This document shows positions 33,764 through 38,199 of a DNA stretch of 44,815 nt, piece after piece (the stretch's first letter is position 1; each line of letters opens with the position of its first letter). This stretch comes from Deltaproteobacteria bacterium (lineage in GTDB: Bacteria > Desulfobacterota > Desulfarculia > Adiutricales > Adiutricaceae). A program made the position numbers and the translations under genes. Location: assembly GCA_031278475.1 (NCBI GenBank), contig JAITKK010000115.1:1-44815 (forward strand), written 5' to 3'. The notes under the pieces were generated by a model, which was not told the origin of the DNA, made no database searches, and worked only from the letters and a program-made list of their open reading frames with translations.

Positions 33764-33843
33764 GTTTGTTTGTTCGGGCCCTTTGGGCCCGCCGTCGCCT
33801 TTGGGCATTTACCCCAAGGCGCGTCCACGCAAGCATCGTGAAG

Positions 33844-35313
33844 ATGATGGCAAACCACTCCCAGATCGTCAACCACCCCGACACAATCCTCCAGTCCCTG
33901 ATGCGGCTCCCACAGCTAGTAAAGATACACCAGCCAAACAACAAGATATTCGTGGAAAACCTGGCCCTGTTCAGGATGTCCTTGCAAGCCGAGTGGGAGA
34001 ATCAGAGCGAGCTCTCTTTCAGGGCCCACAGGGGGAGGATCTACCTGAACAACGGGAAGCTCGCCCCGTCCAACTCCGCCATGGGCACGACCATATCCAA
34101 GCTGATGGAGTCCTGGGAGTCCAAGGGCATGTACGGGTTCACCTTCACCAGGAAGGACGACCTCACAGACCAGGACATAGTGGACTTCATCAGGGCCATC
34201 AACCAGAGCTATGCCCAGCCCAACCCCGCCCAGTGGCTGGAAGAGGAGCGCAAGGGCACCTGGGCGAGGCCCATAGTGGACCAGGACTTCAAGATAGCCG
34301 TGGCCTTCGTGACCGACCAGGAAGGCAGGCCGGTGGGAAGGCCCCTTGTGTGGAACAAGGGGACGAGGACCTTCGCGGCCAAGGCCAGGAGGTCCTACTC
34401 CAGGGCCTTGGCCGTGGTGTCCGGGCTCGATGACAAGCTCCTAAGCGGCGACACCATCAGCATAGCCAAGTCCAGGAGGGTGGTCCAGGACATGGTGGAG
34501 GCCCTCTTCCACGAGGAAAGGCTGCTCCTTAACCTCTCCACCATAAGGGACTACGACGACTACACCTGCACCCACTGCGTGAACGTGGCCATACTCTCCA
34601 TGTGCCTGGGAAAACGCATAGGGTTGAGCAAGATGGCCGTGGTGACACTGGGGCTCACGGGGCTCTTCCACGACCTCGGCAAGGTCGACGTCCCGATCGA
34701 GCTCATCCGCAAGACCGCCAAGTTCACCAAGGAGGAATACGAGACGGTCAAGAACCACTCCCTATTCAGCGTGCTGCGGATCCTCCAGATAAACGCCGAC
34801 CACAAGCTGAAGGCAAAGCTCATACTGCCGCCCTTCGAGCACCACCTGGGGATCGACCTCGCGGGCTACCCGGTGTCCGACAAGCACAGCCCCCTGAGCC
34901 TATTCGGGAGGATCGTTGCCATAGCCGACCACTACGACGCCCTCACCAGCAGCAGATCCTACAGGCCCGTGCCCATGAACCCCGAGCAGGCCCTGGACAT
35001 AATGACCGACCTGTCCGGGAAGGCCCTGGACCCCTTGCTCTTAAAGGTCTTCATCAACATGGTGGGCATCTACCCCGTGGGCACCCTCCTGGTGACCGAC
35101 CAGCGGGAGGTGGCCATGGTGGCCGAGACCCCGCCGGACGCCGTGGACGCGAGGCCGCTTGCCTACCTTTTGGAGAAGCAGGAGGGCTACATCGAGAAAG
35201 GCGACCTCATAGACTTCTCCGAAACCGACGAGGAAGGCCACTTCATACGCAACATCGTCCGCTGCTTCCACCCCTCCGACTTCGGCCTGAACCCAGCCGA
35301 CGTGCTGCTGTGA
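33844..35313 (+). CDS. HD-GYP domain protein (probable c-di-GMP phosphodiesterase)
   Basis: HD-GYP domains hydrolyse cyclic di-GMP and so favour motility. The 489-residue product has an N-terminal module (about 1-120; HQPNNKIFVENLALFRMSL, LSFRAHRGRIYLNNGKLA) resembling that of the HEAT-like protein, and a C-terminal HD-GYP domain: H276-D277 in FHDLGKVDVP, the His pair H333-H334 in FEHHLG, GYP at 341-343, and IADHYDALTSSRSYRP. All main metal ligands appear present. ATG codons at 33844 and 33847 and a GTG at 33838 compete, without a strong ribosome site. Two sigma-28 promoter copies follow downstream, which fits a motility link. No receiver domain is visible, so input may come through the N-terminal module. 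Confidence 0.88.
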   Translation: MMANHSQIVNHPDTILQSLMRLPQLVKIHQPNNKIFVENLALFRMSLQAEWENQSELSFRAHRGRIYLNNGKLAPSNSAMGTTISKLMESWESKGMYGFTFTRKDDLTDQDIVDFIRAINQSYAQPNPAQWLEEERKGTWARPIVDQDFKIAVAFVTDQEGRPVGRPLVWNKGTRTFAAKARRSYSRALAVVSGLDDKLLSGDTISIAKSRRVVQDMVEALFHEERLLLNLSTIRDYDDYTCTHCVNVAILSMCLGKRIGLSKMAVVTLGLTGLFHDLGKVDVPIELIRKTAKFTKEEYETVKNHSLFSVLRILQINADHKLKAKLILPPFEHHLGIDLAGYPVSDKHSPLSLFGRIVAIADHYDALTSSRSYRPVPMNPEQALDIMTDLSGKALDPLLLKVFINMVGIYPVGTLLVTDQREVAMVAETPPDAVDARPLAYLLEKQEGYIEKGDLIDFSETDEEGHFIRNIVRCFHPSDFGLNPADVLL

Positions 35314-35354
35314 CGGGCCGGGCCAAGGGCCCTGCCCCAGGCCTGCCCCAGGGC

Positions 35355-35421: not shown

Positions 35422-35495
35422 TTTGAAAAAAACTTCAGGGAAACCTGAAAAAACCCTTAAGTTTTCCCAAAGGCCGCCGATAAGTCTGTTAAGGG
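35422..35495. repeat. Duplicated ~75-bp promoter block, copy 1
   Basis: Direct repeat of the block at 35699-35773, which lies 277 bases further on. Both contain an A-tract segment (TTTGAAAAAAACTTCAGG), a TTCA/TGAA inverted pair, a sigma-28 promoter, and the tail TAAGTCTGTTAAGGG. Confidence 0.85.
35457..35483 (+). promoter_or_regulatory. Sigma-28 (FliA) promoter, copy 1
   Basis: TTAAGTTT (35457-35464), exactly 11 bases, then GCCGATAA (35476-35483). The classical FliA consensus is TAAAGTTT-N11-GCCGATAA, so only one base differs. Upstream lies a perfect inverted repeat TTCAGG-GAAA-CCTGAA with A-tracts that could act as an UP element. Confidence 0.85.
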
Positions 35496-35698
35496 GGAGG
35501 ATCGCCTTGCGTCTTCGGTCTTTGCCCAGCGAACATGCCGCTTTGACGGGCCGGCCCGATAGCCGGCCCGATACCCGGCCAGACACCTCGCCCGGACACC
35601 GCTTTCCGCCATCCAAGCCAGTCATCCCACCCTACACCCCGCACCCAAACAAAGCCCCCGCGAGCGGCCACATGGCCTCCACAGGCACTCTAAGCAAG

Positions 35699-35773
35699 TT
35701 TGAAAAAAACTTCAGGAATACATGAAAAAAACCCTTAAGTTTCCCTAAGGGCGGCCGATAAGTCTGTTAAGGG
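35699..35773. repeat. Duplicated ~75-bp promoter block, copy 2
   Basis: Second copy of the block at 35422-35495. Divergence is mainly in the inverted repeat (TTCAGG-AATA-CATGAA) and the promoter spacer; the two promoter hexamer regions are unchanged. Confidence 0.85.
35735..35761 (+). promoter_or_regulatory. Sigma-28 (FliA) promoter, copy 2
   Basis: TTAAGTTT (35735-35742), an 11-base spacer of different sequence, then GCCGATAA (35754-35761). Same boxes and spacing as copy 1. It lies 93 bases upstream of the 96-residue gene. Confidence 0.87.
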
Positions 35774-35854: not shown

Positions 35855-36145
35855 ATGAAGATAATACCTTTTTCACCGGCACCCCGGTCAGGAACCCAGG
35901 GGACGGCCGCCAGGCCCTCCCCCCAAGGGGGGGACGACTTCCAAGGCTACCTGGAGTCCGCCGGGAAGGGGCTCAGGGCCAGGGACAAGGTCGGCCTCGA
36001 GAACCTCATCGCCAACGAGAGCGCCCCGCCGGGGGATCTCTCCCAGGCGGTGGGCCTTGTCGCAACCGTCATCGCCCAGATGGGCCTGAAGGCCCCCTCC
36101 GAGCTCAGCCGGGTCCACGACCTGGACGGGCTGCTCTGCTTCTGA
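35855..36145 (+). CDS. Small protein behind sigma-28 promoters, unknown function
   Basis: A 96-residue product with a Pro/Gly-rich N-terminal third and a helical C-terminal part (GLRARDKVGLENLIANES; LSQAVGLVATVIAQMGLKAP). I do not recognise a family. It has the size of FlgM-like or other small motility factors, but FlgM motifs are not evident. GAGG lies five bases before the ATG. The two sigma-28 promoters upstream imply expression with late flagellar genes. A perfect GC-rich hairpin follows the stop. Confidence 0.65.
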   Translation: MKIIPFSPAPRSGTQGTAARPSPQGGDDFQGYLESAGKGLRARDKVGLENLIANESAPPGDLSQAVGLVATVIAQMGLKAPSELSRVHDLDGLLCF

Positions 36146-36904: not shown

Positions 36905-37459
36905 TCACCTGCGGCGCTGGGTGCGTGGCTGGCTGGGGGGAAGCTTGAAGTAGGGGCCGTAGAAGTCCGCGACCGGGCCGCCGCAGCCGCCGGGGTAGAG
37001 GCAGGAGTCCATGAGGCTGAGCTGGGGGGTGACGCCCTGGCAGAAGCCCATGACCGTTGTGGTCCTGCCTGGGCGGGGATTGGCGATGGCCAGGGCCTCC
37101 CAGTCCCACAGGTAGACTATGACGGGCTGGTAGGGGCCTGAGTCTATGGTCACGAAGGGATAGGGGCCGCGGCGGTAGGTCATCTCCGGGGGGAAGATGC
37201 TCCGGATGCGGCCGGTGAGCACCAGGAGCCTCCCCGTGTACTTGGCATCGGCCGTGTGGAAGTCGGTCAGGTAGGCCTCCACCAGGTCCCTGGGGCTTAT
37301 GGGTATGGGCTCGATCCAGTCCCTCTGGGCGAGGGCCTGGGGAATGGGCGGCCTAAAAAAGCAGAGGGCCATCGCCGCGGCCCCCAAGAATAGGAGCGAC
37401 GGGATGGCCGGCTTCCGCCCGGGGCGAAAGCCCCGGGCGGGTCCTTGGTTCTTTCCCAT
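36905..37459 (-). CDS. Exported OB-fold-like protein (tRNA_anti-like family)
   Basis: A 184-residue protein with an N-terminal hydrophobic segment (SLLFLGAAAMALCFF, about 21-35) acting as signal or anchor. The region from SPRDLVEAYLTDFHTADAKYTGRLLVLTGRI resembles the tRNA_anti-like family, where an A.aKY.gK...V.G.I core forms an OB fold. The C-terminal part has four cysteines (GFCQGV, DSCLYPGGCGG) and is not part of the usual domain. A perfect 11-bp hairpin (37415-37440) lies in the early coding region. Function is unknown. A lytic transglycosylase gene lies upstream on the same strand, 71 bases away. Confidence 0.7.
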   Translation of the reverse strand: MGKNQGPARGFRPGRKPAIPSLLFLGAAAMALCFFRPPIPQALAQRDWIEPIPISPRDLVEAYLTDFHTADAKYTGRLLVLTGRIRSIFPPEMTYRRGPYPFVTIDSGPYQPVIVYLWDWEALAIANPRPGRTTTVMGFCQGVTPQLSLMDSCLYPGGCGGPVADFYGPYFKLPPSQPRTQRRR

Positions 37460-37530
37460 TGAAGACCGCCTAAGCGAGGATTGGGGCCCCAGGCCCCTCG
37501 GAATGGATGCCGGGCCCGGGCCCGGCGGCC

Positions 37531-38199
37531 TCAGGAGTCGATATGGGACTGGTAATACTCCATGACCTGCGAAACGAAATGCCTGGTCTCGGTGATGGGG
37601 GGCATCTGGTTGCCGTAGCGCCTGACCTTGTCAGGGCCGCAGTTGTATGCGGCTATGGCCAGGGCCTCCTCGTTCCCGAACTCGTTTAACAGGACCCTGA
37701 GGTAGCGGACCCCCGCCCTGACGTTGTCCCTGGGGATCTGGGGCGAGGAAAAGCCCATGGATCTGGCTGTCGCGGGAAGTATCTGCATGAGCCCAACCGC
37801 CCCCTGGGCGGAGACCGCGTGGGAGTTGAAGCGGGACTCGGCCTGGATGACCGCCTTGACGAGGACCGGGGAGACCGAGTTCTCCTCCGCCGCCTCTTTT
37901 ATTATCTGCTCGTAGTTGCCGGCCTTGTGATCGAAGCTGGGCTTGCCCTGGATCCTCTCGGCCACCATATCTAGTATGCCGGTATCGGGGGAAAGGCTAA
38001 ATGTCTTATCGGCCTCCGGGGCCGTTTCGGGGGCCGGCACCGCCCCTTCCTTGGGGGCCTGGGCCTGGCTTTGCGCCAGGATCTCCCGAGTGTTATGCTC
38101 GTAGACCGCCGGAATAATCGCCAAACCCACGGCCGACACCGCCAGAAGCGAGCGTATCTTGAACGCCGTAAGTATGCTGTGCACCGTTGATGTTCTCAT
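37531..38199 (-). CDS. Lytic transglycosylase (SLT domain)
   Basis: Periplasmic enzyme that cleaves peptidoglycan. The 222 residues start with a hydrophobic signal or anchor (LLAVSAVGLAIIPAV, about 18-32), then a Pro/Ala-rich linker and a C-terminal SLT domain. The catalytic Glu is E121 in AVIQAESRFNSHAVS, followed by GAVGLMQILPATA, GVRYL and AIAAYNCGP, all typical of MltC/Slt-type domains. No ribosome site precedes the ATG; the only upstream signal is a promoter whose -10 ends eight bases before it, suggesting a leaderless message. Confidence 0.92.
   Translation of the reverse strand: MRTSTVHSILTAFKIRSLLAVSAVGLAIIPAVYEHNTREILAQSQAQAPKEGAVPAPETAPEADKTFSLSPDTGILDMVAERIQGKPSFDHKAGNYEQIIKEAAEENSVSPVLVKAVIQAESRFNSHAVSAQGAVGLMQILPATARSMGFSSPQIPRDNVRAGVRYLRVLLNEFGNEEALAIAAYNCGPDKVRRYGNQMPPITETRHFVSQVMEYYQSHIDS

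Follow-up and report, generated by a model that had tools for sequence, protein, structure and literature searches.

In the usual description, a sigma-28 promoter consists of two boxes and is switched on by the release of FlgM alone; few exceptions, such as aer, are known. The consensus is printed as TAAAGTTT-N11-GCCGATAA in PMC2859248. The aer gene of Escherichia coli is transcribed from a sigma-28 promoter which CRP activates from -49.5, and this activation is abolished when the CRP site is moved to the other face of the helix (PMC2859248). An UP element has been described for the sigma-D promoter of the Bacillus subtilis flagellin gene hag (Fredrick 1995 and Caramori 1998, both as cited in PMC4495994). 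The family Adiutricaceae (order Adiutricales, class Desulfarculia) has been described in the termite-gut literature (PMC9137090).

The window analysed here is a stretch of 44,815 nucleotides of contig JAITKK010000115.1 (assembly GCA_031278475.1). It belongs to a draft metagenome genome of 3.18 Mb in 249 contigs, the closest named relatives of which are termite-gut 'Deltaproteobacteria' metagenome genomes; Adiutricaceae is its likely family. Two double boxes of the form TTAAGTTT-N11-GCCGATAA were found on the plus strand without mismatch, namely TTAAGTTTTCCCAAAGGCCGCCGATAA at 35457-35483 and TTAAGTTTCCCTAAGGGCGGCCGATAA at 35735-35761. Dinucleotide shuffles gave a mean of 0.11 double boxes even with three mismatches permitted, and a scan of the whole draft genome at one mismatch or fewer returned these two window sites only. 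Each double box agrees with the consensus at 15 of 16 positions and keeps the N11 spacing; the class-3 sigma-28 promoters of E. coli and Salmonella have the same boxes and spacing (PMC2859248). Unlike these, the window promoters include some 30 bp of conserved module upstream of the boxes and carry a conserved CCT in the spacer. The boxes lie in two direct copies of a block of about 75 bp (66 of 76 aligned bases identical, one internal base inserted), with the -35 boxes 278 apart; an ungapped direct repeat of 65 nt (78% identity, spacing 277) was found independently. The two direct copies, 277 bases apart, with FliA boxes one base off the consensus at perfect spacing, are therefore present as reported in a preliminary description of the sequence. 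That description missed that the copies are also identical over 20 bases starting at the -10 box (GCCGATAAGTCTGTTAAGGG). The block occupies the gap between an HD-domain gene and two small genes of the same direction (Table 1). It is very probably a class-3-type sigma-28 promoter with a conserved upstream module, present as two tandem copies before an operon of small flagella-associated genes.

Table 1. Features of the duplicated promoter block and of the neighbouring genes in the window
Feature	Position	Strand	Basis
HD gene upstream of the block; 515-aa protein, HD-GYP-like (HD_5) domain	33766..35313	+	Pfam HD_5 E=7.9e-16; same neighbourhood in orthologues
Last codons and stop of the HD gene, original of the duplicated tail	35280..35324	+	local alignment with 35513-35557
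Copy 1, distal A-tract (A7)	35426..35432	+	sequence; A-rich columns conserved across genomes
Copy 1, CTTNAG box of the upstream module (here CTTCAG), 23 bp ahead of CTTAAG; also left arm of the TTCAGG-N4-CCTGAA pair	35433..35438	+	
Copy 1, proximal A-tract	35448..35453	+	sequence; present in the majority of genomes, genus g7 having lost it
Copy 1, sigma-28 -35 box TTAAGTTT	35457..35464	+	
Copy 1, sigma-28 -10 box GCCGATAA; predicted start ~35490	35476..35483	+	
Decayed copy of the HD tail, mark of the tandem segmental duplication	35513..35557	+	35/45 identical; none of 500 shuffles scored as high
Copy 2, distal A-tract (A7)	35703..35709	+	sequence; A-rich columns
Copy 2, CTTNAG box of the upstream module (here CTTCAG), 24 bp ahead of CTTAAG; the inverted pair at 35711-35726 is imperfect	35710..35715	+	
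Copy 2, proximal A-tract (A7)	35725..35731	+	sequence
Copy 2, sigma-28 -35 box TTAAGTTT	35735..35742	+	
Copy 2, sigma-28 -10 box GCCGATAA; predicted start ~35768	35754..35761	+	
P0001, 96-aa protein, family-specific; unordered N-terminus, helical C-terminus ending (I/V)H-LDG-L	35855..36145	+	
P0002, 70-aa protein, strongly conserved in the family; predicted single long helix	36314..36526	+	

The identification of the window blocks as sigma-28 promoters, already proposed in the preliminary description, is well supported by sequence comparison. The genome contains flagellin genes, fliA (G000:C31; FliA_WhiG match 266.3 bits above cut-off) and flgM (G000:C125; FlgM match 59.7 bits above cut-off). 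Sites of the type T(T/A)AAAG-N-NCCGATAAGA precede the flagellin genes of the host genome and its relatives (L010, L012, L164, L162 and others), and the sigma-28 code of the family is therefore taken to be the usual one. Before the orthologues of P0001, the sigma-28 site was kept together with the upstream module in 20 genomes, even where the surrounding sequence diverges; shuffled upstream regions contained 0.007 sites with three or fewer mismatches per 750 nt. The presumed first bases of the transcript, just after the -10 box, also look conserved, with GA-N3-CTGAA in many flagellins (L162-L201) and often TTAAGG in the blocks. Elsewhere in the genome, a sigma-28-like CTAAAGTC...TCCGATAAGA (L209, G000:C151:15594-15620) lies 33 bases upstream of a 498-aa open frame and is a possible further FliA target.

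The block was aligned across the family with 23 blocks from 18 genomes, and conservation was found to start about 30 bp upstream of the -35 box. The conserved stretch of about 60 bp reads A-tract-CTTNAG-N17-CTNAAGnTTTnCCT-N7/8-NCCGATA. Its elements are, in order, the A-tract, CTTNAG, some further bases, frequently CTGAAAAAA, CTNAAG as the -35 box, TTT, CCT (conserved at about 1 bit in the promoter spacer), 7-8 bases and NCCGATA. Nearly all blocks place CTTNAG 23 bp ahead of CTNAAG; the spacing is 22 in G011 and 24 in window copy 2. The CTTNAG unit and the -35 unit are alike at offset 23 (identity 0.55, compared with 0.17-0.40 at other offsets), and the module therefore in part repeats the -35 unit in direct orientation. 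The CTTCAG of the window, which had been overlooked, forms such a repeat with the -35 box.

Whole genomes were searched with a profile built from the block (R1), which matched the P0001 locus and almost nothing else. Matches were obtained in 30 of 37 family genomes; 12 of these 30 had been outside model building (G005, G017, G040, G041, G043-G048, G050 and G051); some genomes were unscorable at contig ends. The same small gene pair follows the block in 11 of these 12 genomes, and the contig ends in the twelfth (G017). The other block-bearing genes, both preceded by the full block, are a flagellin gene in G012 and a gene for a short helical protein in G040. The latter (L229, G040:C1:390400-392700) encodes a Q-rich protein (MNIGTVSMTGMASQAARVASN...) that by eye resembles small motility proteins. 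Retention of the block in 30 of 37 genomes upholds the earlier claim of selection on the promoter, and the block alignment and the R1 matches agree that the upstream element is conserved together with it. Judged from these alignments, the module is real and conserved, and is more than A-tracts plus a chance palindrome.

Two conserved runs of A-rich columns lie at about -37 to -43 and about -60 to -66, with A-/T-tracts directly upstream of the -35 box. These tracts could form a plain UP element that binds the alpha C-terminal domains by itself, with CTTNAG merely part of the UP sequence. Such an element would resemble hag, which shares an AT-rich upstream element, the sigma family and the character of a highly expressed flagellar gene (cited in PMC4495994); giant-flagellin promoters with AAATTTTTTTCTAAAAA just before the -35 box point the same way. 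What the window block has beyond hag is a sequence-specific CTTNAG box that recurs at 23 bp. Upstream, conservation is strongest at the T-AG of CTTNAG (1.4-1.5 bits), not in the tracts. The A-tracts are largely lost in genus g7, where the sigma-28 boxes are retained, which weakens a pure UP reading, and G014 retains CTTCAG-CTTTACCT with both A-tracts gone. A plain UP element is thus regarded as a real though lesser possibility.

Flagellin promoters were compared as a set of 35 with a recognisable sigma-28 site, and the CTTNAG module was absent from most of them. In 11 of the 35, TNAG(A/G)TTT was found at one identical distance from the -35 box (maximum of 2 in 1000 shuffles), although these 11 sequences represent fewer than 11 independent events because flagellins within a family share ancestry. 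This box lies 11 bp, or one helical turn, nearer to the -35 box than in the block. A shift of one turn is tolerable for a protein site, and the two spacings therefore fit a bound protein; a fixed, helically phased spacing of this kind would fit a protein-bound element. Giant flagellins are a separate observation: flagellin-domain genes stand in frames of about 1650-1700 aa in the host genome (L162, with its upstream region at G000:C159:11856-12266) and in G001, G006, G008, G013 and G031. In their promoters the AAATTTTTTTCTAAAAA that immediately precedes the sigma-28 -35 box is UP-like, close to the E. coli UP consensus, and distinct from the CTTNAG module.

The fixed helical phase upstream of the -35 box (23 bp in the blocks, 11 bp nearer in the 11 flagellins) is shared with aer. 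The dyads of the window are centred at about -48.5 and about -49.5, assuming predicted starts 7 bases past the -10 box. The CRP site is TGTGA-N6-TCACA, and the window dyad is shorter than and unlike it. The candidate partner, with about an even chance, is a family-specific activator dimer that would act through the alpha subunit. An activator is ranked slightly above a plain UP element, because CTTNAG is best conserved and G014 keeps the CTTNAG box without A-tracts, and both are ranked well above a repressor.

The TTCA..TGAA inverted pair that had been noted in both copies is exact in copy 1 only (TTCAGG-GAAA-CCTGAA, 35434-35449) and carries one mismatch in copy 2 (TTCAGGAATACATGAA). The genome was scanned for TTCAGG-N4-CCTGAA, each place being listed on both strands. 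With one mismatch or fewer, 13 places were found, compared with 4 for the reversed control, and one of the 13 was exact. Of these places, the window pair was considered at the level of genes, and a genome-wide regulon of this element was set aside. The arms of the palindrome do not covary (0.597 observed, compared with 0.573 with arms taken from different genomes), and a two-fold symmetric site of the aer type, kept by paired changes, was thus not found in the blocks. Of the shared operator postulated in the preliminary description, the conserved upstream element stands, whereas the palindrome has arms without covariation and a perfect form that occurs once in the genome. The palindrome is a consensus-level feature, and the better description of the 'operator' is a repeat of the -35 unit, in direct orientation and at 23 bp, together with A-tracts.

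The same symmetry might serve a repressor dimer on TTNAG-N6-CTNAA near -49, which with a partial site over the -35 box (TTAAG-N6-CT) would block sigma-28 polymerase. The consensus dyad at -17.5 from the AAG of the -35 box, a second partial dyad at +5.5, the conserved spacer CCT and the flagellin box abutting the -35 box would be in keeping with this. Repression is nevertheless considered improbable: in addition to the missing covariation, the right arm is not retained in the flagellin class, and no linked regulator gene was found among the neighbouring genes.

Weak minus-strand stems with T-runs over both copies (35433-35450 and 35731-35752) were returned by a terminator scan. They would face any antisense transcripts that come from the minus-strand genes at 36905-38199. 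A minus-strand pair of intrinsic terminators, or an RNA element, in place of a promoter is nonetheless highly improbable. The scan gave 5 sites where 3.4 were expected in shuffles, the weak stems show no covariation, and the block had no match in Rfam. Genus g7 has kept the sigma-28 boxes but not the T-runs, and the block recurs before a flagellin gene.

The HD gene is a conserved neighbour of the block in several relatives, and its tail recurs in the window as a decayed copy (Table 1). The two window copies of the block are 83% alike, and each is 66-67% like the single copy of G001, a genome of the same genus. Because the HD tail was copied and the copies are closer to each other than to that of G001, they are attributed to a tandem segmental duplication within the host lineage. 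The duplicated segment measures about 230-280 bp and includes the HD gene tail, a reach that had been missed. The proposal of selection rather than recent copying alone is thus supported by the family-wide conservation of the block, but has to be amended in that the copies do come from a tandem duplication inside the lineage. Within its genus, the duplication is confined to the host genome, and 372 bases separate the distal copy from the start codon; both would be in keeping with a neutral duplication, in which the proximal copy alone is functional and the distal one a mere remnant. This appears rather unlikely, since the boxes are perfect in both copies while the flanks between them carry many insertions, and since tandem blocks are also retained in six genomes of genus g6 (G006, G013, G031, G035, G047 and G048), 116 to 319 bp apart. 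Between the window copies, the flanks have diverged further (62 of 87 aligned positions identical, with 45 gap positions in addition) than the block (66 of 76 identical), which would agree with selection on both copies.

The two downstream proteins had no known family in Pfam, NCBIfam, PHROGs or PDB sequences. The N-terminus of P0001 is variable among relatives, and its predicted fold is of low confidence (pLDDT 64) and gave no structural match; P0002 is 47-84% identical to its relatives, and its predicted long helix gave no structural match either. In the order-level relative G022, the P0001 orthologue follows a FliD-like gene, the one piece of neighbour evidence for a flagellar role. Since neither protein has a recognised family, a flagellar role is argued from the promoter type and this FliD-like neighbour. 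Identity of the 96-aa P0001 with FlgM was rejected, the canonical FlgM being encoded elsewhere in the genome. At L119 (G005:C66), the P0001 gene is shortened (77 aa, without the LDG end) and lies in a different neighbourhood, behind a PtsI-like gene; the block is nonetheless present. In G004, the intact P0002 gene is followed by another copy, which is interrupted (L070, G004:C36:13000-13206).

In the proposed mechanism, FliA would recognise T(T/A)AAG...NCCGATA, as suggested by the sequence and by the like sites of flagellin promoters, and both tandem copies would point at the operon of P0001 and P0002. The upstream module (A-tract, CTTNAG, A-tract) would lie on a fixed helix face and be contacted by a protein aiding the binding of sigma-28 polymerase. 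We infer FliA binding, a bound partner, and activation rather than repression. Output of the small genes would be high only after FlgM releases FliA, that is, late in flagellar assembly, and the duplication would add a second start about 280 bp upstream, with a presumed gain in output. Tentatively, a protein present throughout the family may read CTTNAG one or two turns above the -35 box, so that a subset of sigma-28 promoters would need a second signal besides FlgM release. That subset could, with similar reserve, comprise the small-gene operon and some flagellins.

Across the family, the block gives some of the sigma-28 promoters a second element that is locked in helical phase, and tandem copies of it occur in two genera. 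It suggests that these flagellar genes may be under more control than that of the flagellar sigma factor alone. We know of no studied flagellar regulation in gut Desulfarculia, and in these bacteria the locus offers a compact, testable case in which late flagellar genes may be subject to an additional level of control. It also points to P0001 and P0002, both uncharacterised small proteins, as putative late flagellar products.
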